Shown here: positions 32,975 through 45,377 of the stretch, piece by piece
Position numbering within the stretch: position 1 is the first letter of the stretch
Layout: each line of letters begins with the position of its first letter
Source of the DNA: Candidatus Moraniibacteriota bacterium
Lineage (GTDB): Bacteria; Patescibacteriota; Minisyncoccia; Moranbacterales; UBA1568
Length of the DNA stretch: 45,377 nucleotides
Direction: 5' to 3'
NCBI GenBank assembly: GCA_030648835.1
Contig: JAUSGT010000002.1
Location: 264,081-309,457, forward strand
The notes under the pieces: model-generated
Told to the model about the DNA's origin: nothing
The model's input: the letters and a program-made list of their open reading frames with translations, nothing else
The model's database searches: none
Program-made: the position numbers and the translations under genes

Positions 32975-33278
32975 GGTTAAGCAATCTATGAGCCTCCAGG
33001 CTCGAGTTTGCTTTTGTTTCTTTTTGTTTTAATTAGGGTGAAGCTTCAAAAAGTCTTCGGGCTTTTTTGTTCGCTCTAAAAGTCATTTAACAATTGAGCC
33101 AAATAACAACAATAAAATAATCACAATTTTTTGTGGTTAGTCCTTGTTTTCTTTTTGTCTTCGGATGAAGGGAAAACAATTGTAACTTAGGTTACACGGA
33201 AGAATCTCTATTCGGTAGCAGTGATGCTACCAACTAAATTTAATCTTTTTGCCTTCGGGTAGACAGATTGAGTTTTCT
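32975..33278 (+). promoter_or_regulatory. 16S rRNA leader with processing-stem arm
   Basis: The leader holds a GAGCC/GGCTC hairpin at about 32991-33004 and a UUCG-capped stem AAAAAGTC/GGCTTTTTT (33048-33068) that looks like a terminator or attenuator. TTTTGTGGTTAGTCCT (33129-33144) pairs with AGGACTAACCGCAAAA at 36008-36023 beyond the 16S 3' end (15 Watson-Crick pairs and one G-U). No gene is seen here. Confidence 0.75.
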
Positions 33279-33282
33279 TATT

Positions 33283-33322
<40 letters not shown>

Positions 33323-34263
33323 GATAAGGCATGCAAGTCGAGTGGGTTTAGACCCACGGCAAACGGGTTCGGATAACATAGGAATCTTCCCTAAAGTCGT
33401 GAATAATCCAGAGAAATTTGGAATAATGCGCGATATGCTCTACGGAGTAAAGATTTATCGCTTTAGGAGGAGCCTGTGTCCTATCAGCTAGTTGGTGAGG
33501 TAATAGCTCACCAAGGCTATGACGGGTAGGGGGTGTGAGAGCACGGCCCCCAACATTGGAACTGAGACACTGTCCAAACACCTACGGGTGGCTGCAGTCG
33601 AGAATATTCCACAATGGGCGAAAGCCTGATGGAGCGACGCCGCGTGCGGGATGAAGGTTTTCGAATTGTAAACCGCTTTTTTCAGGGAAGAACTACGGTG
33701 ACTGTACCTGAAGAATAAGAGGTTACTAACTCTGTGCCAGCAGTAGCGGTAATACAGAGACCTCAAGCGTTATCCGGATTTATTGGGCGTAAAGGGCAGG
33801 TAGGCGGATATGTTAGTCGGATGTTAAATCTCGGGGCTCAACCCCGAACAGGCATTCGAAACGGCATGTCTAGAGGATGTGAGAGATCAGTGGAATTTAT
33901 GGTGTAGTAGTGAAATGCGTTGATATCATAAAGAACACCCAAGGCGAAGGCAACTGATTGGCACATATCTGACGCTGAGCTGCGAAAGCGTGGGGAGCGA
34001 ATAGGATTAGATACCCTAGTAGTCCACGCCCTAAACGATGCATACTAGGTGCAGGGAGAATCGACCCTTTCTGTGCCGGAGCTAACGCGTTAAGTATGCC
34101 GCCTGGGAAGTACGAGCGCAAGCTTAAAACTCAAAGGAATAGACGGGGATCCGCACAAGTGGTGGAGCATGTGGTTTAATTCGACAGTAAGCGAGGCACC
34201 TCACCAAGGTTTGAAATCTAGCTGCAGAGCCCAGAAATGGGATGTCCTTCGAGGGTGCTAGAC

Positions 34264-34297
<34 letters not shown>

Positions 34298-34373
34298 AAG
34301 ATGTTCCGTTCAGTCGGGAAACGAGCGCAACCCCTGTGAAGTGTTATATATGTCACTTCAGACTGCCCTCTCA

Positions 34374-34488
34374 TTTGCGCACGAAGCGCGCAAATGGAGT
34401 GAGTAGTTTGTAGATGGTAGTTGGTAGAGAATTTTTCTACTTACTATTCACTACGTACTACAAACTGTATTCGCGTTTCGCGAATAAG
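34374..34488 (+). other. Expansion of 16S helix 40
   Basis: CCCTCTCA and TGAGAGGG close the normal stem between GACTGC and GGAGGAAGGCGGGGATGACG. Between them lie three hairpins: TTTGCGC/GCGCAAA, a long AGTTTGTAG/CTACAAACT arm (about 34406-34466), and TATTCGCG/CGCGAATA. E. coli has only a few loop bases here. Confidence 0.75.
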
Positions 34489-34723
34489 TGAGAGGGAGGA
34501 AGGCGGGGATGACGTCAAATCAGCATGGCCCTTTGACACCTTGGGCGACACACGTGCTACAATGGCCGGAATAAAGGGTCGCCAAATCGCAAGATGGAGC
34601 TAATCCCAAAAATTCGGTCTCAGTTCGGATTGAAGGCTGCAACTCGCCTTCATGAAGCTGGAATCACTAGTAATCGTTGATCAGCCACGCAACGGTGAAT
34701 GCGTTCTCGGATCTTGTACTCAC

Positions 34724-35676
34724 AATAAAAGCGCCGGGCAGTTTATCCCGCACTTTGTTCTCTTACAAAAGAGGATGGAGTCGGAATAAGTCTCGTTCTT
34801 GTTTCTTTGCGAAACAAAGTGCGGGATTTATCAATCTAAGGAGTTCAAATCTCCTCCTCCGTTTCCCAAACGGAGCGTAGTTGAAAGGTAGTCGCGTATC
34901 GCGAGGTACGCGGTGAAGGACCTGGAAACGAATGGTAGTCCAACTAAGAAAGAATCGTATCGACTTCTGAACCAAGGCGGTGAGCAGAAGGAAGATATAA
35001 TAGAGCGATTCGTTGGAATGTCAGGAACAGAATGATAGATAACCCCGGGAGATCTTGCGCTGTTTCAATGTCGTGTTACAATGATATTGAATAATGAAAC
35101 TTACGCAGCGTAAGAAGTCAGCTGAGCTATAGTAACTCTCGATTTATCGAGATGAAGGGCTCACTCAGATGCATATGGAAAAAATAACTCCAGATTACAT
35201 CGTTGGTCTTGTGGACGGAGAGGGAAGTTTCACAGTCTATGTGAAAAATCCTGATTCAGATAAGCAAGTCATACGACGAACAAAAGTAGAGCCACGGTTT
35301 TTTCTGAAACTTATCGAGAAAGATAAAAAAATTCTCGACGAACTCAAGAAATTCTTTGGGTGCGGGAACGTGTATTTTCAAAAAGATACTCGTCCCAATC
35401 ATCAAAATTGTTATCGTTATGAAGTAGCCAATAGAAAACATCTGGAAACCATTATTATTCCATTCTTCAAAAGTAATTCTTTGAGGTTACGTTCAAAGAA
35501 AAGTGACTTTGAAATGTTTTGCAGGATTTTCAAAATGATTATGAAGAATGATCATTTCAAAGATTCGGGATTGCGTAGGATATACGCTCTCAAGCAGACA
35601 ATGCATTAGAGCTCGTCGTGTGCGGGAAATCCGCAGGCACGATGGGAACATCAATTCGTAGTTTTACGAAGATAAT
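34724..35676 (+). mobile_element. Intron in the 16S decoding region, with endonuclease gene
   Basis: By comparison with conserved 16S the insertion lies between C1399 and C1400 (E. coli numbering): the exons join as GTACTCAC and CGCCCGTCAC. The 953-nt insert starts with a big hairpin (TCCCGCACTTTG / CAAAGTGCGGGA), has further stems, and encodes a LAGLIDADG protein. GGCGGTGAG at 34976-34984 is the exact reverse complement of the joined exons CTCACCGCC, as expected of a guide sequence, though it lies unusually deep in the intron. The ends (AATAAA...GATAAT) lack the usual terminal G of group I introns and the GUGYG start of group II, so the class is open. Confidence 0.8.
35169..35609 (+). CDS. 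LAGLIDADG homing endonuclease in the 16S intron
   Basis: A 146-residue protein with one LAGLIDADG helix, TPDYIVGLVDGEGSFTVYV (about residues 7-25), followed by the strand pattern of the fold (VEPRFFLKLIEKDKKILDEL, KFFGCGNVYFQKD, CYRYEVANRKHLETIIIPFF, SKKSDFEMFCRIFKMI). Single-motif members work as homodimers and cut intron-less alleles at a long site, here the 16S decoding region, so the intron can home. The start may be the ATG at 35169 or 35175. It is the only gene within the intron. Confidence 0.92.
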   Translation: MHMEKITPDYIVGLVDGEGSFTVYVKNPDSDKQVIRRTKVEPRFFLKLIEKDKKILDELKKFFGCGNVYFQKDTRPNHQNCYRYEVANRKHLETIIIPFFKSNSLRLRSKKSDFEMFCRIFKMIMKNDHFKDSGLRRIYALKQTMH

Positions 35677-36007
35677 CGCCCGTCACACCAAGAGAGCCGG
35701 CAATACCAGAAGGCCCCGGGTTAAATCGGGGACGACGGTAGGGTTGGTGATAAGGGTGAAGTCGTAACAAGGCATCCGTAGCGGAAGCTGTGGATGAATC
35801 ACCTCCTTTCTAGGGAGATAAAGGTGTAGAGATGATGATCTATGATCAGAATCACAACCATTATGGTCGTTCATTCGCTTACGTATAGTTTTCTAACGCT
35901 TCGGCGAAAGGAGATTTACCTGTCTATGGCAGGCGTAGTAATGAAACATAATAAACTAGAGACTTTCCGTAAAAAGTTCGTCGTGGTGGAAACATCGTGG
36001 CGAACAT

Positions 36008-36023
36008 AGGACTAACCGCAAAA
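36008..36023 (+). other. 3' arm of the 16S processing stem
   Basis: AGGACTAACCGCAAAA pairs with 33129-33144 in the leader, and the next bases GATTATTGTT can extend pairing with the AACAATA...ATAATC region upstream. This would be the RNase III-type stem that excises pre-16S. The rest of the trailer (35813-36169) has no gene; 36053-36115 folds into a three-way arrangement (CTGATG/CATCAG, GCTC/GAGC, AATTCC/GGAATT). Confidence 0.7.
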
Positions 36024-36169
36024 GGTTTTGATTATTGTTTAAATGCAAATTATCTGATGGAGCGCTCTTCAATGAGCAATTCCTTGCGAAGGGAATTTCA
36101 TCAGGTAAGAATCAAGTACTTTACGCACAGTATTCCAAGATAAAGGAATTTCTTCGTTTACTGCTGTAA

Positions 36170-36245
36170 GACACGGAAACTCGTCGCAAGACGGGTTTTC
36201 TTGTTTTTAAGTTATCAGAACTAGCTTATATGGGCTAGTTTTTGC
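36170..36245 (+). terminator. Two tandem terminators after the 16S unit
   Basis: The first is ACTCGTC-GCAA-GACGGGT with TTTTCTTGTTTTT, one of three near-identical copies. The second, 10 nt later, is AACTAGC/GCTAGTT with TTTTTG. Together they close the 16S transcript with no 23S following. Confidence 0.85.
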
Positions 36246-36353
36246 TTTATTCCAGGCGTTTGAAAAGTATTGACAAAAATGGAAAAATAACACAGACACT
36301 TTTTTAGATATATGCTATATTTTTGGTAAAGAAATAGATGTTGTTCTAGCCAT

Positions 36354-37505
36354 ATGAAAAAGACTAGGAATAACCGAGACCAAGACCTCATTGAGAGGAC
36401 TGCCAGTATATATCACTCTATTGCTCATGATTCGATGGACGGGTTTTTGATTTTAGATATGCATGGTCAGTTTCTGGATGTGAATGATGTGTATTGTCGC
36501 ATGATAGGATATAGTCGCGGGGAACTTTTGAAAATGAACTTGGTAGATGTCGAGGCAGCGGAAAAACCGCAGAATGTTGTCAAATTCATGAGACATATAA
36601 AGAGGCTAGGAAAAACCCGCGTCTTTACGCAACACCGAAAAAAGAATGGTACTATTGTGGAGGTTGAAATCAGTGTCAATTATACCAATTATCTAGGAGG
36701 ACTCGTATTTGCTACTTTACGCGATATTACCGGAATCAAAAAAACAGAAAACGACCAGTTTAGAAATCGAGCAGAGTCAAGAAAAAAAATGGAAGGAAAA
36801 CTAGCCGATTCATACAGACACTCTGAAAATCAGGATCAATCAAGAAAGGTAGTAGAGGGACAGCTAGCCGATTCATACAAACATTCTAAAGAAGAGGCAG
36901 AGTCAAGAAAGGTGATAGATGGTCAGCTGGCCGATTCATACAGACACTCTGAAAATCAGGATCAATCAAGAAAGATAGTAGAGGGACAGCTAGCTGATTC
37001 GTACAAATATTTGGGGACCATCAATAGAAAAATTACTCTTCTTCTGGACATAGAAAAACTCCCGAGGTCAAAAAGTCACCGCAAGGAAACCATAGACTAT
37101 ATTTTGAGTTTGGCTATGAGTATTGTGAATGCTCCTATGGGGTATCTCTATAGTTCGAAAGGGAGAGGGACGTTTAGTCTATTATCCTATAAAGGAGTAG
37201 AGGCGGGGCAAGAAGAAAAAATCAAAGTGATTACCTCCCGTAAGGTCGGACTTTTGAAACATCTGCTCCGAGAAAAAAGTCTTATTAGCGGGGATATAAA
37301 GCGTTACGAAGCGGAGCTTTTGGCATCAGACAATAAGCTGGAATATTTTGTTACTCTACCTCTCTCGAAAGGAACAGCTTTGGGAGGGTTTATTTTTTTG
37401 GGTTTTAATAAAAAACATACCGTAGCCACGCAAGATTTGGAATTTCTTGACGTTTTTGCCATGCATGCTTCCAAGGCCCTTATGGAAGCTGGTGTTTTGG
37501 AATAG
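36354..37505 (+). CDS. PAS - LADSY-repeat coiled coil - GAF sensor-like protein without output domain
   Basis: A 383-residue cytoplasmic protein. Residues about 20-130 form a PAS domain (HDSMDGFLILDMHGQFLDVN, YCRMIGYSRGELLKMNLVDV, FATLRDITGIKKTE). Residues about 140-225 hold four tandem units of about 20 residues built on SRKxxEGQLADSYxHSxExxx. Residues about 240-383 form a GAF-like domain (IDYILSLAMSIVNAPMGYLY, LEYFVTLPLSKGTALGGFIFLG, LEFLDVFAMHASKAL). No kinase, GGDEF or DNA-binding domain follows. It probably senses a ligand and works through partner contacts of the coiled coil. It lies right after the 16S terminators; TTGACA at 36270 lacks a good -10. Confidence 0.82.
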   Translation: MKKTRNNRDQDLIERTASIYHSIAHDSMDGFLILDMHGQFLDVNDVYCRMIGYSRGELLKMNLVDVEAAEKPQNVVKFMRHIKRLGKTRVFTQHRKKNGTIVEVEISVNYTNYLGGLVFATLRDITGIKKTENDQFRNRAESRKKMEGKLADSYRHSENQDQSRKVVEGQLADSYKHSKEEAESRKVIDGQLADSYRHSENQDQSRKIVEGQLADSYKYLGTINRKITLLLDIEKLPRSKSHRKETIDYILSLAMSIVNAPMGYLYSSKGRGTFSLLSYKGVEAGQEEKIKVITSRKVGLLKHLLREKSLISGDIKRYEAELLASDNKLEYFVTLPLSKGTALGGFIFLGFNKKHTVATQDLEFLDVFAMHASKALMEAGVLE

Positions 37506-37562
37506 ACACACATATACCCAAGATAAAGCCTGCCCGCCTCACTACGCATAGTGTTGTGGGAG

Positions 37563-37602
37563 GGACACGGGAACTCGTCGCAAGACGGGTTTTCTTGTTT
37601 TT
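37563..37602 (+). terminator. Terminator, second copy of the CGTCGCAAGACG type
   Basis: GACACGGG then ACTCGTC-GCAA-GACGGGT with TTTTCTTGTTTTT. It is the same sequence as the 36170 and 38348 copies over about 35 bp. Confidence 0.85.
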
Positions 37603-37652
37603 CTAAGGCTATACTCTACTGTTTAGAGGGCGCCCAAACGGGTGTTTTGTGT

Positions 37653-37662
37653 ATGCTATACT
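37653..37662 (+). promoter_or_regulatory. Extended -10 promoter of the secreted-protein gene
   Basis: ATGCTATACT: a TATACT box with TG one base upstream. No good -35 lies 17 nt before it. The leader would be about 22 nt. Confidence 0.5.
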
Positions 37663-37690
37663 ATAGCCATAATGTAACTAACATAAAACT

Positions 37691-38338
37691 ATGAAAAAGA
37701 ATATCTTTTTCCCGGTTGTTGGGCTCGCGGTTTTTTCTTTTTTGGCATTGCCTGTTTCCGCGCAGAAACCGGAAAGTGTAGGTACGCCAGCAGAAAAGTC
37801 ATTGCAGGCACAAACCGCACAGGCGAATCTGAATGCCAGTAAAGGTCAGGTGAATGCTCCTACGAATGATGCTACGGAGACCACTCAACCAACGACAGAA
37901 AAAAATGCCAAAGGTCAAACAACTGCCGAATCACATCGCAGTGTGGTGGCTACCTTTGTGCAAAGTCTCTTGGCGGTAGCTGACAGAGAAGGTGGCATTG
38001 GAGCGCAAGTGAAAGTAGTCGCAGAGCAACAAAATGATACTAAGGATAGGGCCGCTGACTTGATATATGCTGTTGAGAATAGAAATAAAATAAAAACATT
38101 TTTTATAGGTACAAGTTATAAAAATCTTGGAGAATTACGAAGCCAAATGGTTCAAACAAGAAATCAGATTGACCAACTTAGGAGGTTAGCGGCTAAAGCT
38201 GAGAACCCAGAGGATAAAGTAGCGCTTGAAACTCAGATTCAGTCTCTCGAACAAGAAGCACAGAAAATTGATACTTTCATCACCGATAATGAAAGCCAAT
38301 TCAGTTTGTTTGGCTGGGCAGTAAAACTCTTCCAGTAA
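37691..38338 (+). CDS. Secreted coiled-coil protein of unknown function
   Basis: A 215-residue protein with a clear signal peptide: MKKNIFFPVVGLAVFSFLAL then PVSAQ, cleavage after VSA (residue 24). The mature part has an Ala/Gln/Thr-rich disordered stretch (about 25-80), a conserved-looking helix VVATFVQSLLAVADREGGIG (about 89-108), and a C-terminal coiled coil (LRSQMVQTRNQIDQLRRLAA, KVALETQIQSLEQEAQK). It may be a surface or periplasm-like structural protein. It has its own promoter and repeated terminators on both sides. Confidence 0.7.
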   Translation: MKKNIFFPVVGLAVFSFLALPVSAQKPESVGTPAEKSLQAQTAQANLNASKGQVNAPTNDATETTQPTTEKNAKGQTTAESHRSVVATFVQSLLAVADREGGIGAQVKVVAEQQNDTKDRAADLIYAVENRNKIKTFFIGTSYKNLGELRSQMVQTRNQIDQLRRLAAKAENPEDKVALETQIQSLEQEAQKIDTFITDNESQFSLFGWAVKLFQ

Positions 38339-38347
38339 AGAGTGGGG

Positions 38348-38432
38348 GACACGGGGACTCGTCGCAAGACGGGTTTTCTTGTTTGATGTTCGCTTTTCGG
38401 AAAGGATGACCACAACCGGCATCCTTTTTGAT
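38348..38432 (+). terminator. Two terminators: third CGTCGCAAGACG copy, then AAAGGATG hairpin
   Basis: The first is ACTCGTC-GCAA-GACGGGT with TTTTCTTGTTT (38357-38384). The second is AAAGGATG/CATCCTTTTTG (38401-38431), which recurs almost unchanged at 38954-38987. Confidence 0.8.
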
Positions 38433-38442
38433 TTTCTCCCCA

Positions 38443-38470
38443 TTGACTTTGTTCAAAGAAGACGTATAAT
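38443..38470 (+). promoter_or_regulatory. Promoter of the 38529 gene
   Basis: TTGACT, 16-nt spacer, TATAAT; leader of about 52 nt. Confidence 0.7.
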
Positions 38471-38528
38471 ATCTTCTTGTACCTTTTTATTTGATGTATT
38501 CACCGCACGCTCACTTGGGGGAATAATC

Positions 38529-38909
38529 ATGCCGAAAGAAAAATGGAATCCCGAGAAATACCCACCAGCGTTGCTGGAGGCGGCGGCATTGCAATCGTTA
38601 TTGAATGCCATCGGCTATGATCTGCAGACAGAAATATTTTTGGGGATCGGTGATGAGTGTTTGTATGTCACTCTGCGGATTGCCGACCATGGGGATGTCC
38701 ATTTCCCTGTAGGCACCTTTGAACAATCGCCACAAGAAATATATGAACTGGCGGTGGAGGCGTTTCGCGATTGGAATACACTGACTACGAACTCCGAAAG
38801 AGAGAGCATCGTCAATGCTTCTCGGGCGAGGCATAATATGCCGAAAATCATCTTCGCGTTGATGTTGCTCGGACTTTGCGGGCCACGTTCGAAGCCGACG
38901 TTACACTAG
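38529..38909 (+). CDS. Small cytoplasmic protein of unknown function
   Basis: A 126-residue protein starting MPKEKWNPEKYPP, with GGGGGA 7 nt before the ATG. It has mixed alpha/beta character (LQSLLNAIGYDLQTEIFLGI, CLYVTLRIADHGDVHFPVGT, ESPQEIYELAVEAF-like helix) and a short hydrophobic C-terminus (IIFALMLLGLCG). No membrane signal or known motif. It is a single-gene unit between a promoter and a repeated terminator. I do not recognise it. Confidence 0.6.
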   Translation: MPKEKWNPEKYPPALLEAAALQSLLNAIGYDLQTEIFLGIGDECLYVTLRIADHGDVHFPVGTFEQSPQEIYELAVEAFRDWNTLTTNSERESIVNASRARHNMPKIIFALMLLGLCGPRSKPTLH

Positions 38910-38953
38910 CCCTCGACGTTATTGAAAAAACACAGGAGAACAACGCTTTCTCG

Positions 38954-38987
38954 AAAAGGATGACCACACCGGCATCCTTTTTGATTT
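38954..38987 (+). terminator. Terminator, second AAAGGATG/CATCCTTTTT copy
   Basis: AAAAGGATG and CATCCTTTTT form the stem; the loop differs from the 38401 copy by one missing base. Confidence 0.8.
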
Positions 38988-39009
38988 GTATACATTTTTA
39001 ACTTTTCAA

Positions 39010-39450
39010 CTATCGCTCGTGATCGACTTTGCCGTTGTTGATTATGCCTACGGCGCGTGAGAGATAACGGTACCGTATCTGTAGGGGATGCGTTTTGTTT
39101 TGTGGTGCGTACGCTGTTAGTAGAGCCACGATCGGGATAAGATCTCGACGGGCAGGTTCTCTTATTGGATGGTGCGGAGCGGCTGCAGGAGCAAGGTCTG
39201 TGATAGCATAGAGTGTTTTTATTGGGTAGTGGGCCTCAAAGGCATTCATTAAACTTACGAGTTCTTGAATTTTTTGTTCACACTCCTCAGGGCTTGGCTG
39301 GGTAATCTCTGGTTCATTGGCATATTTTACTAGCCATTCAGGTGCTTGTTCCGTATGCGCCGGACTAAGTTCAGCCACGTTGGTTCTGGCATGGGCTTTT
39401 GGCTCCTGCTCCGGTGTCGGGATGGGTTTGGGAAATTCGTTTTCGTTCAT
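39010..39450 (-). CDS. Hypothetical protein, Pro/Glu-rich
   Basis: A 146-residue protein started at MNENEFPKPIP; an upstream start at 39504 would add 18 residues. The first 60 residues are Pro/Glu/Ala-rich and probably disordered. A helix follows (SPEECEQKIQELVSLMNAFE), then PIKTLYAITDLAPAAAP and a basic C-terminus. No Shine-Dalgarno sequence and no known family. Codon usage looks ordinary. Confidence 0.5.
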   Translation of the reverse strand: MNENEFPKPIPTPEQEPKAHARTNVAELSPAHTEQAPEWLVKYANEPEITQPSPEECEQKIQELVSLMNAFEAHYPIKTLYAITDLAPAAAPHHPIREPARRDLIPIVALLTAYAPQNKTHPLQIRYRYLSRAVGIINNGKVDHER

Positions 39451-39554
39451 ATGAATAAGTGTATCATTTACCACCAAATTGAACCACCGGGAAATCCAGT
39501 CCATAGGAAGGCTCTCCCTCAGGGCGATCGAGATCTCTTGTAATTCTGATGTAC

Positions 39555-39582
39555 TTCAAATTTTTCCGAAAAGTGGTATAAT
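39555..39582 (+). promoter_or_regulatory. Promoter of the apbE operon
   Basis: TTCAAA, 16-nt spacer, TATAAT. The -10 is perfect and the -35 is poor. Leader of about 24 nt. Confidence 0.55.
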
Positions 39583-39612
39583 AATGATGGAGTCTTGGTA
39601 AAAACAAAAAAT

Positions 39613-40044
39613 ATGTTTAACATAAAAAAAGGTACCGCCTTGATCGCGGTGGTGGTGTTGGTGAGCGTTTTCGTTTACTATCGCTACGCGGTAAAGATAC
39701 TGCAGGTGAACAAGGGTGAGAATACGACGCCGGTGACGGATATGCTTCCGGTCGGAGCGAAGAAAGTGAGTGCGGTCGTCAAATATATGGCGACTGAGGA
39801 CAAGGAGGACGAATTACGATTTGTCCTGACCGTCGACAAGAGCGGAATAATTACCGAGTTGGCTACCCTGGACGCCAAGACGAATGAAGTACCGGAAAAG
39901 AAAAAAGATTTCAACCGGCAGGTCTCGGTGATGATTGTCGGAAAGAAGTTGAGCGAGCTGACAGCTATCGATAATGTTGCCAAATCAACACTTACTACAA
40001 AAGCTTTCAATAGTGTGGTTGATCAGCTGAAAGCCCAATTGTAA
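39613..40044 (+). CDS. Anchored small protein, possible FMN-binding-type ApbE substrate
   Basis: A 143-residue protein with one N-terminal membrane helix (about 8-26, ALIAVVVLVSVFVYY) and an outside domain. A TTG start at 39595 is an alternative. The domain has strands VSAVVKYMA, LRFVLTVDKSGIITEL and VSVMIVGKKLSEL, and ends with DNVAKSTLTTKAFNSVVDQL, which resembles the end of FMN_bind domains (D..SGATxTS.A....), where a Thr receives FMN covalently. apbE, the enzyme that attaches FMN, starts 3 nt after the stop codon. I infer an extracytoplasmic electron carrier modified by ApbE; the motif is divergent, so this needs proof. Confidence 0.6.
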   Translation: MFNIKKGTALIAVVVLVSVFVYYRYAVKILQVNKGENTTPVTDMLPVGAKKVSAVVKYMATEDKEDELRFVLTVDKSGIITELATLDAKTNEVPEKKKDFNRQVSVMIVGKKLSELTAIDNVAKSTLTTKAFNSVVDQLKAQL

Positions 40045-40047
40045 GCG

Positions 40048-40908
40048 ATGGAAGAATTTACTTTTACCGGACTGGGGACGGAGTGGTCGCTTGCAGTCGA
40101 CGGTAAACAGCTTGAGGACCAGGTACGGAAAGACGTAGTTCAATATGTTCAGGATTTCGAAAACCGCTTCTCGCGGTTTTTGCCGTTATCAGAGGTGAAT
40201 GCTTTCCGCACATCACCAGCCGGCGATTATATTCTTTCTCAAGAATTTTCACTTTTGCTGGCTCGGGCGGACCGACTTAGAATTTTAACCAATAGTGCCT
40301 ATGATCCGGCGGTGGCCAGTATCTTGGAAGATGCCGGGTATGGTGCAAAGAGCGGTATGGAAAAAATCAAACAGCCTCACATTCCGAAGTGGGCTCTTGT
40401 TGGTAATAAGCTAACCATCGACAGTCCGATTGCGTTTGATCTCGGCGGTATTGGCAAGGGATACTGTATCGATCAGGTAGCCGATGTACTCAAACATTTC
40501 GGTTACGATTATTATCTGGTTGACGGTGGAGGAGATATGGCGGGAACTACGAAAGCGGATGGGAGCGCGTGGCGGGTAGCGGTCGAGTATCCGGGAAAAC
40601 CGGACACAGCCGCGAGCATTGTGCATCTGAAGCATCAGGGAATCGCTGTGTCCGATAGTTTCCGCCGCCGCTTCGGGAAGTGGCATCACCTGATTGATAT
40701 GCAGGAAAAAAAGCCGGTGGAAAAAGTCATCGGTTGTGCGGCGGTGGCGCAGGATGCTTGGGCAGCCGACTGTATGACCTCCGGACTTTTCTTCGCGCCG
40801 CCGGAGAATTATCCCGCATTGGCAGAGGAATTTGAGGCTACCTATATCGTTTTTCAGAGCGATGGGACGACCACAGTGAACTCCGATTGGCAGGGGGAAT
40901 TGTTATAA
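40048..40908 (+). CDS. apbE: FAD:protein FMN transferase (ApbE)
   Basis: A 286-residue ApbE. It transfers FMN from FAD to a Thr/Ser in a target protein and needs Mg. Family motifs: FTFTGLGTEWSL, FSRFLPLSEVNAF (residues about 41-53), TNSAYDPAV, DLGGIGKGYCIDQVADVL (131-148, the flavin/Mg site), YLVDGGGDMAGTT, HHLIDMQEKKPVE and QDAWAADCMTSGLFF. No signal peptide or lipobox is visible, unlike many ApbE proteins that act outside. It is coupled to the membrane protein upstream, its likely substrate. Confidence 0.93.
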   Translation: MEEFTFTGLGTEWSLAVDGKQLEDQVRKDVVQYVQDFENRFSRFLPLSEVNAFRTSPAGDYILSQEFSLLLARADRLRILTNSAYDPAVASILEDAGYGAKSGMEKIKQPHIPKWALVGNKLTIDSPIAFDLGGIGKGYCIDQVADVLKHFGYDYYLVDGGGDMAGTTKADGSAWRVAVEYPGKPDTAASIVHLKHQGIAVSDSFRRRFGKWHHLIDMQEKKPVEKVIGCAAVAQDAWAADCMTSGLFFAPPENYPALAEEFEATYIVFQSDGTTTVNSDWQGELL

Positions 40909-40915
40909 ATAGGGT

Positions 40916-40944
40916 TTGACTTTCTATCGCTTTTTTGGGATACT
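40916..40944 (+). promoter_or_regulatory. Promoter of purB
   Basis: TTGACT, 17-nt spacer, GATACT; leader of about 75 nt. Confidence 0.65.
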
Positions 40945-41026
40945 CGGGTGAAGTTCGTTAAGAATTTTTGTTTTCCAAATGGCTTAAGAAAGCCGTTTTT
41001 CGTTCACACACTGCGAGGGCTGAATC

Positions 41027-42472
41027 ATGAAGAATGGACATGAAAATACTGCGCTGGCTACTGCAATATCGATGCTTTCAAACGTATCGAATGGGCAAAA
41101 TCGGATGTTACAGATGCCGGGGGATGGACGTTATCAACCCAAAGAGCTCAAGGCTTACTTGGGCTACGATCAATGGGTCGGCTGGCTCATCATCGTGGAG
41201 TGGTTTTGGATGAGGACCTTGGCACAGATGAAAGTAATGCCGGAAGAAGATGCCGCGTTACTTACTGAAGAAAGATTATCTGTTTTGCTTCTTGAGATAA
41301 CGACAACGAGGCAGGATGCCAAGGAAAAGGCATCGGGAGGACACGATATATTGGCGTTGCTTGCGCTTATGCGTGAGCATCTGCCTAAAGAGCTCCATCG
41401 CTGGCTGCATTTCTGCGCAACATCGTACGATATTATCAACACGGCGTATGCGCTCCAACTCAAAGCGACTTTCGAACAAGTGTTTGTGCCCAAGCTACAA
41501 GACTTGGATGCATTGTGGCGCGGCAAGACTGCCGATAACGCGATGGTGTTGCAGTCTGGAAGGACTCACCTGCAAACAGCCTTACCGGTAACGGTTGGTT
41601 TCTGGTTGGCAAACCTCCACAACCGTTTTGTGAATTCTGCCCGCAAGGCGCTTCAGCTGTCGAAAGAGGTCCCCGGAAAGTTTAGTGGGGCTGTCGGTAC
41701 TTCCGCTTCTCAAAGGGGGCTTGTTGATTCCAGAGGAGGAGAGCGTTGGCTTATGCAAATGCTTGGTCTCCCGGTAGCTGAAGTGAGCACGCAAATCACC
41801 CCGCCCGAAGGGATGGCCAGGTTTTACCATGAGCTCGTACTCCTTTCGGGAGCGCTTGCCAATCTTGGCGAGGATACACGCATACTGCAAAGTTCGCAGT
41901 TTGGTGAAATCGTGAGCGTCAGCTCAACGTCGTCGGCCATGTCGCACAAGATGGCCAATCCGATTGCGGCGGAAAATGTTGCCGGTATGCATGTGACGGT
42001 TATCGCCGAGTTTATGAAAATATTAATGACTCTCGTGAGTGATCTTCAGCGCGATTTGCGCGGGTCAAGCGTCATGAGAAGCTACTCGGCTGTAGCGGTC
42101 TATGTCTATCAGCAAATCCTGACTGCTGAGCGGTTACTCAAAAGCCTTATGGTGGATAAAGCTCGGTGTCGGGAAAACTTCCATACGCAGGAGCGATTGG
42201 TGGTGGCTGAACTGCTCCATCTTTTTCTCCAACGTGAAGGTTTGCCGGAGGCACATCATTTTGTGAACACGAAAGTTATCCCGCAGGCCATAGCGTCCGA
42301 TATGAATCTTTACCAGGTGATGCAAGGTTTGGTCAGTGACAGTGGGCCGATTACCGTGGAAATCTGGCGTCATTTACAGGACAGCAACATCGTTTCCTAC
42401 CTAACGTCGCCGGAGAAGTATATTGGTGACGCAGTGGAAATCGCTTACCATGAAGCCGAGAATAAGTTTTAA
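41027..42472 (+). CDS. purB: Adenylosuccinate lyase
   Basis: A 481-residue aspartase/fumarase-superfamily lyase. It has HFCATSYDIINTAYALQLK (family TSxDI block), SGRTHLQTALPVTVGFW (GRTHxQ block) and a variant of the superfamily signature at TSSAMSHKMANPIAAEN. The usual form is GSSxMPxKxNP; here Pro is Ser and one residue is inserted (KMANP, not KxNP). PurB splits SAICAR to AICAR and adenylosuccinate to AMP. With purE and guaA downstream and purD at 19558 this assignment fits best; argininosuccinate lyase is less likely. It is a single-gene unit. Confidence 0.85.
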   Translation: MKNGHENTALATAISMLSNVSNGQNRMLQMPGDGRYQPKELKAYLGYDQWVGWLIIVEWFWMRTLAQMKVMPEEDAALLTEERLSVLLLEITTTRQDAKEKASGGHDILALLALMREHLPKELHRWLHFCATSYDIINTAYALQLKATFEQVFVPKLQDLDALWRGKTADNAMVLQSGRTHLQTALPVTVGFWLANLHNRFVNSARKALQLSKEVPGKFSGAVGTSASQRGLVDSRGGERWLMQMLGLPVAEVSTQITPPEGMARFYHELVLLSGALANLGEDTRILQSSQFGEIVSVSSTSSAMSHKMANPIAAENVAGMHVTVIAEFMKILMTLVSDLQRDLRGSSVMRSYSAVAVYVYQQILTAERLLKSLMVDKARCRENFHTQERLVVAELLHLFLQREGLPEAHHFVNTKVIPQAIASDMNLYQVMQGLVSDSGPITVEIWRHLQDSNIVSYLTSPEKYIGDAVEIAYHEAENKF

Positions 42473-42499
42473 GCTCGCGCACCGCGTGTGACGCAAACA

Positions 42500-42560
42500 C
42501 CCTGACCTCCGTTACGATAGTCCTACAAGGATACTATCGGAAGCGGGGGCAGGGATTTTT
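42500..42560 (+). terminator. Long hairpin terminator of purB
   Basis: Nested stems CCCTG/CAGGG, CCG/CGG and CGATAGT/ACTATCG close around a short loop, followed by ATTTTTATTT. Confidence 0.8.
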
Positions 42561-42562
42561 AT

Positions 42563-42591
42563 TTGACTTTTTTTTCAAGGTTGGGTATTCT
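42563..42591 (+). promoter_or_regulatory. Promoter of the 42765 gene
   Basis: TTGACT, 17-nt spacer, TATTCT. Transcription would start near 42598, giving a leader of about 165 nt. Confidence 0.65.
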
Positions 42592-42716
42592 TTTCGTATA
42601 GAAGTATTTATCAAGTACGGATGTATGCACGGTAATAGAGTTTTCATTATTAAGGCAAAGACAAGCTCATTTTTGAGGGCTGGTTTTTGACTTTCTTCCG
42701 ACTTACAGGAAATTTC

Positions 42717-42750
42717 AAACGAGCTCTCAAAAGGAGCTCGTTTTCTTTTT
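42717..42750 (+). terminator. Attenuator-like terminator in the leader
   Basis: AAACGAGCTC and GAGCTCGTTT form a perfect 10-bp stem with a 7-nt loop, followed by TTTTCTTTTT. It lies after the promoter at 42563 and ends about 5 nt before the Shine-Dalgarno sequence of the 42765 gene, so it would stop most transcripts before the gene unless relieved. An upstream segment AAGCTCATTTTTGAG (42663-42677) could compete for pairing. Confidence 0.7.
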
Positions 42751-42764
42751 CCTGGGAGGTATAC

Positions 42765-43061
42765 ATGAATGATATGCGGATCTTTAACAATCAGGCGCTT
42801 CAGAGGGACGAAGAAGTTGAACGCTTTCATAATGCTTTTGAGGAGATCAAGGAGGCTATGCTGGATAAAGAAGGACGCTATCCAGTCGGCACCGTCATTC
42901 GGACGCATGGCTACGTTTTCCAACGTATCAGGTTCGAATGGATCCTACGGCCGCATGATTATCTTTCTCATAGGGAAGTGATGGATCGGTATCCGACAGA
43001 AGAAGAGCGTAAGTCTTACTATGTTTGGTACAATTCCAAAATACGCACTCCTTCATTCTGA
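42765..43061 (+). CDS. Small protein of unknown function behind an attenuator
   Basis: A 98-residue protein starting MNDMRIFNNQALQRDEEVER, with GGGAGGT 5 nt before the ATG. It begins with a charged helix (HNAFEEIKEAMLDKEGR), then PVGTVIRTHGYVFQRIRFEW and a Tyr-rich C-terminus (REVMDRYPTEEERKSYYVWY). No membrane segment or known domain. It sits between purB and purE, each with its own promoter. I do not recognise it; the leader hairpin suggests tight regulation. Confidence 0.6.
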   Translation: MNDMRIFNNQALQRDEEVERFHNAFEEIKEAMLDKEGRYPVGTVIRTHGYVFQRIRFEWILRPHDYLSHREVMDRYPTEEERKSYYVWYNSKIRTPSF

Positions 43062-43081
43062 TGAAGCGCCAAATCAACTCT

Positions 43082-43116
43082 CCCGGGGCAGAGCCTTGTT
43101 CCGGGGTTTCTTTTTA
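43082..43116 (+). terminator. Terminator of the 42765 gene
   Basis: CCCGG pairs with CCGGG across a loop, followed by GTTTCTTTTT. A second hairpin with GTGAAAT/ATTTCAC arms (43121-43165) follows. Confidence 0.65.
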
Positions 43117-43188
43117 CCCAGTGAAATTCCGCCTGAAGCGGACTGGTCGCGCCGGATTTCACGGGGTGAACCTTTTTAGTAGTCGGGG

Positions 43189-43217
43189 TTGCCTTTCCTT
43201 AGCTCTTTTGTTAAGCT
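43189..43217 (+). promoter_or_regulatory. Promoter of purE
   Basis: TTGCCT, 17-nt spacer, TAAGCT; leader of about 65 nt. Confidence 0.5.
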
Positions 43218-43289
43218 ATGGCCATAGGAGGCCAGACTTAAATGTTTGGCTTTTCGTTGCTTAACATGTACTTTCGCGAAGGAGCGAAA

Positions 43290-43853
43290 ATGAACCAAGA
43301 CAACAATCAAAGCAAACGCAGAATCGCCATTCTTCACGGCTCTGACAGTGATAAGTCTCAAATGACTCTGGGGGTAGAATTTCTCAGGGCCATACGGGCG
43401 ACGAGAACGTTTGAGATTACGGATTTCTACCGGGTCAGCATTCATCGCAACAATCGCGAATTGCATGCGTGGATGGATGATCGCCATCGTTTGAGTGATG
43501 TGGATGTGATGGTGATGGGAGCCGGATGTGCCGCCCATCTGCCGGGTGTGTGTGATGCCTATCTGCGCAACGATTGGAAAGACACTCAAATCGTCGTCGT
43601 TGGCGTGGGGTTTCAGGATCCCAAGAACTGGTGGAATTCCGCGGCGGCAGAATTGTCCATCTCGCAAGTGCCGGGTACGCAGGTAGTTTGTGGCGATGCC
43701 CGGGGCAACTTCGTCGGAGAAGATGGGTTCGTGCGGGCATTGCGATTTGCGGTCGAGGGAGAATTGCCGAAAATCACAATCCCGGAAGAAAAACCCAGCA
43801 AACACCGGACATTTGACGAAATGCTGACATTTCTTGGTCTGCCGAGTTCCTAG
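43290..43853 (+). CDS. purE: PurE-family phosphoribosylaminoimidazole carboxylase/mutase
   Basis: A 187-residue protein. The start is chosen at MNQDNNQSKRRIAIL because AAGGAG ends 5 nt before it. PurE moves the carboxyl group of N5-CAIR to make CAIR (or carboxylates AIR directly). Motifs: ILHGSDSDKSQM (GSDSD loop), VSIHRNNREL (usual SAHRTP), VMGAGCAAHLPGVCDAYL (GAGGAAHLPG, with the active-site His). It is longer and more divergent than typical PurE (about 160 residues), with an insertion KNWWNSAAAELSISQVPG and a C-terminal tail. Its partner purK is not in the window. Confidence 0.8.
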   Translation: MNQDNNQSKRRIAILHGSDSDKSQMTLGVEFLRAIRATRTFEITDFYRVSIHRNNRELHAWMDDRHRLSDVDVMVMGAGCAAHLPGVCDAYLRNDWKDTQIVVVGVGFQDPKNWWNSAAAELSISQVPGTQVVCGDARGNFVGEDGFVRALRFAVEGELPKITIPEEKPSKHRTFDEMLTFLGLPSS

Positions 43854-43913
43854 CGGAACAGACCGCGATGAAAACAAGAAGAACAAGGTTCACGGAACAA
43901 AATCGAGGCTGAA

Positions 43914-43950
43914 AGGGAGACCGCGCCACGTCGCGTCCTCCCGATTTTTT
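43914..43950 (+). terminator. Terminator of purE
   Basis: GGGAG and CGCG arms pair with CGCG and CTCCC, followed by GATTTTTTT. Confidence 0.8.
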
Positions 43951-43984
43951 TACACAAGCAATTTTCTTTTTCTAAAGTCGTTTT

Positions 43985-44013
43985 TTGCAATTAGCGGGGT
44001 CTTTTGCTACACT
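43985..44013 (+). promoter_or_regulatory. Promoter of guaA
   Basis: TTGCAA, 17-nt spacer, TACACT; leader of about 73 nt. Confidence 0.65.
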
Positions 44014-44092
44014 CTCAGCCATGGAGGGACTCATGTTTATTATGGGTTCTGTTTTTTTACAATCAGGTTTTTAGCCAATGGATGGAGGCATT

Positions 44093-45377
44093 ATGCTCGA
44101 TACTCTCAAGAAAGCAACGCCTGTGGCATTAGCCGCCATTGAAGAAGAAATGCGGGTGCGCAAGACTACAGAAGTATTCCTCATTTTCTCTGAGGGAAGT
44201 CAATTCGATCACTTGGTCTACCAGAGGGCAGCCAAACGGGGCGTCTACTGCCTTGTCGCCGATCCTGCCAAAGTGACCGCGGAAGATGTCCTGAAAGTAA
44301 ATCCCAAGGGTATCGTCATCACCGGTGGGCCCGCTTCGGTACATGCGGAGCCGCCACCTTTTGATCGGGCGATTTTTGACCTCGGCATCCCTGTATTGGG
44401 TATTTGCCTGGGCGGCCAGATGATTGCTCAACATGTCGGTGTGACTGTTGCACATGGCGGATCCGAGTTTGGCGAACATCACATGCAGGTTCTTTCTTCC
44501 TCCGATCTTTTCCGTGACTGTCCTCAAACGATGCCGGTGCTACAAAGTCACAGTGATGAGATTCAGATGGATCCGCGACTCGAGCTTCTCGGTTCTACCG
44601 GCGAAGAAAAAGTCTCCGCGTTCCGGAGTATTGAAAAACCGTATCTTTACGGTGTGCAGTTTCACCCGGAAGTTCCAGAAACCGAAAAGGGAGACACAAT
44701 TTTCGAAAACTTCTTCTTCGGTATTTGCCGGGCTCAAGATCGCTTTCCGGCGGAAAAAATGGCCAAGAAAAAGATTGACGAGTTGAAAGTCAAACTTGCG
44801 GGAGGGAAAAAAGTCACTCTCGGGCTTTCAGGGGGCGCGGATTCTTCGACGGCAGTTCATCTCCTCAAAGAGGCGGTAGACGGAGAACCGCATCGCATCC
44901 AGGGCGTCTATATCAAGGGCATCGATCGGCCGGACGACGAGGCATTCGTTCTCAAATACTATGCCAACCAGCCTTGGCTCGACTTGGTAGTTGTCGATGC
45001 CACGGAGAGATTTCTTGAAGTTCTCGCCTGGCCGAAGATGAAACATTTCAAAAAGATCCGTCGAGCCATTCGCAGGCTCCTTGGTATGGGGCCACCGGTC
45101 ACTATGAAGGCGAAGCGGCTCGCCATGCGAGTGGTGTATAAGGCCGTTCTCGAAGAACAGGCAAGAATATTTGGTGCTGACTTCATTGCGCAGGGTACGC
45201 TTTACACGGATATTTCTGAAAGCGGCGGGGGACACGCGAGCGGAGCGAGGAAGGCGGTCATCAAGATTCATCACAACACCAATCTCGGATTTTTTCTTCC
45301 GGAACTTACGCCACTTGATGACTGTGTCAAAGATGGTGGTCGGGATATCGGTCGAGAAATCGGTGTTCCTGAAGAAC
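44093..45377 (+). CDS. guaA: GMP synthase (glutamine-hydrolysing), 3' end cut off
   Basis: At least 428 residues; the frame runs off the window with the C-terminus missing. GuaA converts XMP to GMP with glutamine and ATP. The N-terminal class I glutamine amidotransferase has the nucleophile Cys105 in GICLGGQ and the His191/Glu193 pair in GVQFHPE. The ATP-pyrophosphatase P-loop is SGGADS (246-251; usually SGGVDS), followed by FIAQGTLYTDISES and KIHHNTNLGFF (usually KSHHNVGGLP), so the substrate loop is divergent. GGAGG lies 5 nt before the ATG. It is a single-gene unit with its own promoter. Confidence 0.93.
   Translation, partial: MLDTLKKATPVALAAIEEEMRVRKTTEVFLIFSEGSQFDHLVYQRAAKRGVYCLVADPAKVTAEDVLKVNPKGIVITGGPASVHAEPPPFDRAIFDLGIPVLGICLGGQMIAQHVGVTVAHGGSEFGEHHMQVLSSSDLFRDCPQTMPVLQSHSDEIQMDPRLELLGSTGEEKVSAFRSIEKPYLYGVQFHPEVPETEKGDTIFENFFFGICRAQDRFPAEKMAKKKIDELKVKLAGGKKVTLGLSGGADSSTAVHLLKEAVDGEPHRIQGVYIKGIDRPDDEAFVLKYYANQPWLDLVVVDATERFLEVLAWPKMKHFKKIRRAIRRLLGMGPPVTMKAKRLAMRVVYKAVLEEQARIFGADFIAQGTLYTDISESGGGHASGARKAVIKIHHNTNLGFFLPELTPLDDCVKDGGRDIGREIGVPEE

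Follow-up and report, generated by a model that had tools for sequence, protein, structure and literature searches.

The window, that is, the whole stretch of 45,377 nt analysed here (contig JAUSGT010000002.1 of assembly GCA_030648835.1), belongs to a genome of 1.01 Mb (4 contigs, 99.84% complete) in which one 16S rRNA gene was found, and an intron encoding a LAGLIDADG homing endonuclease (LHE) interrupts that copy (Table 1). Related loci come from Patescibacteria (CPR), with Candidatus Moraniibacteriota as the nearest named group. The same 16S gene carries a hairpin-rich expansion of about 130 nt at 34368-34496, in what we judge by position to be the helix 39 region; a mobile repeat was rejected as its source, since it is single copy in the genome, and locus L038, of the same genus, has a different hairpin at this place. 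No 23S rRNA gene lies downstream in the window (35800-45377), and a family search gave no LSU match in the 99.8%-complete assembly; introns may interrupt the gene, or the assembly may lack it.

A protein search across the class, together with a scan of genome contigs, gave over 100 homologous loci, and most of these carry their intron at exactly the site seen in the window. The distribution is patchy, the intron being absent from same-genus genomes with a readable site. In 16S homologues of the same genus (L033-L036 and L039, 92-98% identical across the 164 bases preceding the site) and in many other relatives, the site is empty and CTTGTACTCAC runs directly into CGCCCGTCAC. A single placement of the insert is possible, as its first base is A where the next exon base is C, and its last base is U where the preceding exon base is C. 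The empty sites and this unique placement define the intron as exactly 34724-35676, starting with AATAAAAGCG and ending with GATAAT. Its position, between E. coli 1399 and 1400 (numbering read from the sequence C1400-G1401-C1402-C1403-C1404-G1405), is the one proposed by an earlier note on this DNA, and the comparison with same-genus genomes confirms it. That note had also described the ends correctly: there is no U before the 5' site, no terminal G and no 5' GUGYG, and the final AU (...GATAAT) agrees with the AY of group II introns. The LAGLIDADG gene that it had recognized is borne out by the PF00961 match.

Table 1. Coordinates in the window of the interrupted 16S rRNA gene and of the predicted parts of its intron
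Feature	Position	Strand	Basis
16S rRNA 5' exon, ends ...CTTGTACTCAC (E. coli 1399)	33277-34723	+	RF00177, 1270 bits; empty sites of relatives
IBS1 CUCAC, last 5 nt of 5' exon	34719-34723	+	complements GUGAG at 34980-34984
Group II intron, 953 nt	34724-35676	+	empty sites; group II fold
5' terminal linker AAUAA, before degraded GUGYG position	34724-34728	+	homologue alignment; L017 has ...AAGUGCCCGG aligned there
Degenerate GUGYG equivalent AAGCG	34729-34733	+	alignment
Domain I, closed by 34734-34738/35044-35048 (CCGGG/CCCGG)	34734-35048	+	closing helix
Lineage-specific hairpin insertion within domain I helix, about 80 nt	34745-34827	+	perfect 15-nt inverted repeat
EBS1-bearing hairpin of domain I (ID3-like)	34957-34998	+	covariation
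Delta extension GGCG, pairs with CGCC of 3' exon	34976-34979	+	position facing +1 covaries
EBS1 GUGAG, pairs with IBS1 CUCAC	34980-34984	+	covarying hairpin; guide shift
Domain II	35053-35115	+	helix 35053-35063/35105-35115; RF01998 match starts at 35088
Domain III, conserved UAGUA	35124-35162	+	helix 35124-35128/35158-35162; RF01998 at 35088-35160
LAGLIDADG_1 homing endonuclease, 146 aa, domain IV	35169-35609	+	PF00961, 65.9 bits, E 6.6e-18
Domain V	35612-35646	+	covariation in 62 distinct sequences; fold z -4.96
Domain VI hairpin, 5'-strand AA bulge, 3' strand without bulged A	35650-35673	+	covariation
16S rRNA 3' exon, from E. coli 1400	35677-35796	+	RF00177 match 35675-35796, 79.2 bits
Delta' CGCC, first 4 nt of 3' exon	35677-35680	+	pairing with guide

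Class of the intron

The Rfam/Infernal search that the earlier note had recommended gave a sub-threshold match in the window to RF01998 (group-II-D1D4-1; 26.6 bits, E 0.017, cut-off 35), and the same model reached its cut-off in three homologous introns (L017 and L019, 36.0 bits each; L027, 35.1 bits). The model of domains V-VI, RF00029, matched the 3' ends of L019 and L024 with 31.2 and 27.4 bits, both under its cut-off of 40. In an alignment of 62 distinct 3' ends, 96.7% of the cells of domains V-VI were paired, versus 78.4% after shuffling, with 263 versus 74 double-changed cells, and sliding the partner by one column lowered pairing to 33-36%. Domain V has 14 pairs, 6 of them with double-sided changes (99.9% of cells paired), and in domain VI all 8 pairs show such changes (91.1%). 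Upstream, the closing helix of domain I pairs in every cell (100%) across 80 sequences and has 123 double-changed cells; the helices of domains II and III are paired in 96.5% and 94% of cells, with double changes in 8 and 5 pairs, respectively. Based on the covariation of domains V/VI and I-III and on the Rfam matches in homologues, we conclude that the insert is a group II intron. The class, which the earlier note had called unclear, is the part of its reading that does not stand, whereas the site, the gene, the ends and the guide-like segment (see below) do.

Several features speak against this assignment: the Rfam score of the window is below the gathering threshold, the 5' GUGYG and the branch-point A are lacking, and the loop of domain V is GAAAU, not a GNRA tetraloop. 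Apart from this loop, domain V of the window consists of a lower stem with a CGU triad (C-G, G-U wobble, U-A), a 2-nt bulge and a 4-bp upper stem; across the homologues the triad reads C-G, G-U, Y-R, and the G-U wobble is invariant in 62/62 sequences. A CGC triad in domain V is the IIC form. The subclass features are mixed, as a CGC or CGU triad fits IIC and the delta-delta' pairing of the 3' exon, to the base adjoining EBS1, is IIA-like.

In favor of a group I intron, introns of that group typically carry LAGLIDADG genes and are common in CPR rRNA genes (PMC11270868). The covariance models found no match to Intron_gpI (RF00028) in the insert even at permissive thresholds, let alone the clear one that the earlier note had named as a possible refutation, and the absence of a U before the 5' site and of a terminal G, together with the covarying group II structure, refutes this reading, to which we give a negligible probability. 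An archaeal-type rRNA intron excised at a bulge-helix-bulge, for which one could cite that LAGLIDADG genes occur in archaeal rRNA introns and that a PDB relative of the protein, 3e54, is an rRNA-intron endonuclease, would be needless given the ribozyme fold, the normal-looking domain V and a guide that spans the junction, and it is just as hard to credit. Other sub-threshold Rfam matches are attributed to chance: those to RNA-OUT and to microRNAs all fall on the perfect hairpin at 34745-34827, and that to Afu_514 is antisense within the ORF region. This hairpin has TTTATC at both ends and is absent from relatives; it too is single copy in the genome, by which a mobile repeat element was rejected as its source.

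Exon guide and first splicing step

As the earlier note had reported, the joined exons, CUCAC/CGCC, have an exact reverse complement in the segment GGCGGUGAG (34976-34984). This match was not accepted as proof of a guide by itself, since a junction-spanning complement of at least 9 nt occurs in 49/5000 Markov-randomised introns (∼1%). The segment lies in the loop of a hairpin in which 9/9 pairs show double-sided changes (97.1% of cells paired in 72 distinct sequences; double-changed cells, 164 versus 47). In the 87 introns at or adjoining the site, the guide base facing position +1 of the 3' exon forms a C-G pair in 81 and a U-A pair in 6, with 0 exceptions. Furthermore, L017 and L021 are inserted 3 bases downstream (1402/1403), and their loop GGGCGGU is the complement of ACCGC/CC. 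Given the covariation at +1 and this shift with the site, we consider it certain that 34976-34984 is the exon guide, composed of EBS1 and delta. The guide-like role suggested earlier is thus supported, and the distance of about 250 nt from the intron start was correct; the location is not the oddity it had seemed, domain I being the proper place of EBS1 in group II introns.

At the 5' end, all homologues at the 1399/1400 site have ∼5-9 extra nucleotides ahead of the GUGYG position, where L017 keeps GUGCC and the window has AAGCG. Displacement of GUGYG is known in rRNA group II-LHE introns, and the motif is typical, not defining (PMC4424553, PMC13190283); the same holds for the bulged A of domain VI, found 7-8 nt from the 3' end and lost in some families (PMC13190283). 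In the window, the position aligned to this A is a C-G pair adjoining an uninterrupted stem, and the introns of 60/78 proteins of the window's clade are without a 3'-strand bulged A in their best domain VI fold. An automatic classifier of domain VI labelled L011 and L096 "bulgedA3" and 15 introns "both"; these labels are taken as alternative folds of short stems and were not counted as branch points. Most tested members of the sister subfamily (L017, L019, L020, L022, L026 and L027), whose endonucleases have a GLTDGEG motif, possess a bulged A at -8, which coexists with the 5' linker. The endonuclease tree sets the window's subfamily apart with a support of 99/98. The combination of branch-point loss and 5' linker has parallels in fungal mitochondrial rRNA introns (PMC4424553) and in many group II-LHE families (PMC13190283). 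Since the window's subfamily combines a 5' linker with the loss of the bulged A at the branch point, we propose that its first splicing step is probably hydrolysis rather than lariat formation.

The same group II-LHE intron might instead branch from an unusual nucleophile, for which domain VI offers, e.g., an A of the AA bulge in its 5' strand and the A that comes last in its 3' strand before the basal stem. Lariats have been reported for an LHE-encoding IIB1 intron despite a degenerate domain VI (cited in PMC13190283), domain VI has a CAA/AA bulge that is conserved in its own right, and sister introns show that an A at -8 and a 5' linker can occur together; the clade-wide scarcity of a 3'-strand bulged A and the C-G pair of the window nevertheless make branching unlikely, if still worth considering. 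We regard as improbable a further reading, in which the intron is degenerate and is either removed by host factors or retained, with the rRNA working in pieces. It would account for the degraded 5' motif, for the 80-nt hairpin that only the window's copy carries in domain I and for the disturbed domain V of several homologues, but the helices, the guide and the G-U wobble of domain V are strongly conserved, the endonuclease frame is open and the interrupted 16S copy is the sole one found. The disturbed homologues are L010, L014, L026, L078, L079, L101 and L137, in which other hairpins replace or interrupt domain V while the segment from GGGAAC to domain VI is retained; hence, not every copy need be active.

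Altogether, we are highly confident of the joint reading, a group II intron with a LAGLIDADG gene in domain IV that splits the only 16S gene found. In the mechanism that we favor, with hydrolysis as the first step and no lariat, the folded transcript would hold both exons on the EBS1-delta guide, domain V would promote cleavage at the displaced 5' splice site, which precedes the degraded equivalent of GUGYG, and exon joining would restore a continuous decoding centre. More tentatively, these introns may represent a large bacterial group II lineage of the decoding centre that has changed to branch-independent splicing and uses a single nine-base guide (EBS1 plus extended delta) for both exons, next to a sister lineage that keeps the branch point at the same or adjacent sites. 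If true, the two would form a natural pair, one before and one after the change, in which the evolution of group II splicing chemistry could be followed outside organelles.

Endonuclease, spread and known relatives

The predicted endonuclease contains one motif, IVGLVDGEG, and its stop codon ends 2 nt ahead of the domain V stem. Its profile match and its acidic catalytic residue (E18 of the motif, invariant in 15 aligned homologues) are those of the LAGLIDADG family, and its PDB relatives include I-SmaMI and I-OnuI. The related I-ShaI was shown to cleave an intron-less site, in 23S (PMC11270868). The endonuclease family, the patchy distribution and the activity of I-ShaI lead us to infer a spread by DNA homing: the protein, presumably a homodimer, would cleave the insertion site in 16S genes that lack the intron, and the intron would be copied into the cut gene during repair. 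Since there is no reverse transcriptase, the intron would have no retrohoming of its own.

Other members of the homologue set differ in their layout. L042 is a 457-nt intron without an endonuclease gene, and in the sister introns L023 and L025-L027 the endonuclease frame enters domain V, and the catalytic stem thereby encodes its final codons. L018 (∼185-2032) holds a tandem pair of group II introns in a single 16S gene, with an apparent micro-exon of ∼5 nt between them (ACCGC, 1398-1402) and their own guides, GGCGGUGA and GGGCGGU. In L114, labelled Spirochaetia, the 16S gene (81% to L101) and the intron are of CPR type, and the contig is probably misbinned.

The class is now settled for an intron that interrupts, in the decoding centre, the sole 16S gene found in a reduced bacterium. 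CPR bacteria harbor many group II introns with endonuclease genes, whereas the 2026 survey placed the bacterial family in sulfur bacteria only (PMC13190283). One family comprises relatives with and without a branch point, at two sites three bases apart and with the guide shifting accordingly, so that both the change from branching to hydrolysis and the retargeting of guide and endonuclease are open to direct tests.

The window's intron has the characters of the 16IS9 and rns-1396 introns, namely, a site at ∼1396-1400, a single-motif LHE in domain IV, no reverse transcriptase and a 5' linker. Reportedly, the rns-1396 introns of giant sulfur bacteria (Thiotrichaceae) were treated by Salman et al. 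in 2012, and the group IIB1 LHE introns of fungal mitochondrial rRNA by Toor and Zimmerly in 2002 and by Li et al. in 2011. In the cited part of their survey, Tsurumaki et al. (2024, PMC11270868) describe group II-like 16S insertions of CPR bacteria at position 1400 only (16IS9), 39/53 of which encode LHEs. The window's intron belongs to this set and shares with it the host group, the site, the group II signature, a single-motif LAGLIDADG_1 protein and the lack of a reverse transcriptase. The ends given there derive from Rfam hits and alignment to E. coli, whereas ours derive from empty sites, and splice sites, guide pairing, 5' linker and branch-point loss seem not to be resolved in that part of the survey.

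The bacterial rns-1396 family of Liu et al. (2026, PMC13190283) consists of IIC-LHE introns of Thiotrichaceae only, with a 5' linker in all members, an LHE in domain IV, no EBS2 and IBS3 present; the Thiomargarita intron was termed IIB1 in earlier texts (PMC4424553, PMC4853749). Compared by description only, this family and the window's intron have in common the decoding-centre site in 16S, the single-motif LHE in domain IV, the 5' linker and the absence of EBS2, and they differ in the site (named 1396 versus 1399), in the hosts (Gammaproteobacteria versus CPR) and in the recognition of the 3' exon, by IBS3 in the former and by contiguous guide pairing, delta-delta', in the window. Fungal mitochondrial rRNA IIB1-LHE introns, reviewed in PMC4424553, carry 5'-terminal insertions, by which GUGYG comes to lie 1-33 nt downstream of the 5' splice site, a displacement also seen in the window. 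Like the window's intron, they have lost the branch-site motif and EBS2, and an LHE replaces the reverse transcriptase; they differ in subclass and hosts, in having a two-motif LHE and, in some families, in placing it in domain III. The bacterial group II intron C.te.I1 of Clostridium tetani also splices several nucleotides upstream of GUGYG, but PMC4424553, where it is cited, states neither an rRNA location nor an LHE, both of which the window has. Thus, the arrangement was already known: PMC11270868 outlines it for CPR bacteria, and PMC13190283 details it for giant sulfur bacteria. Our analysis adds the exact ends, the covarying exon guide, its shift with the site and the division of the introns by branch-point state.
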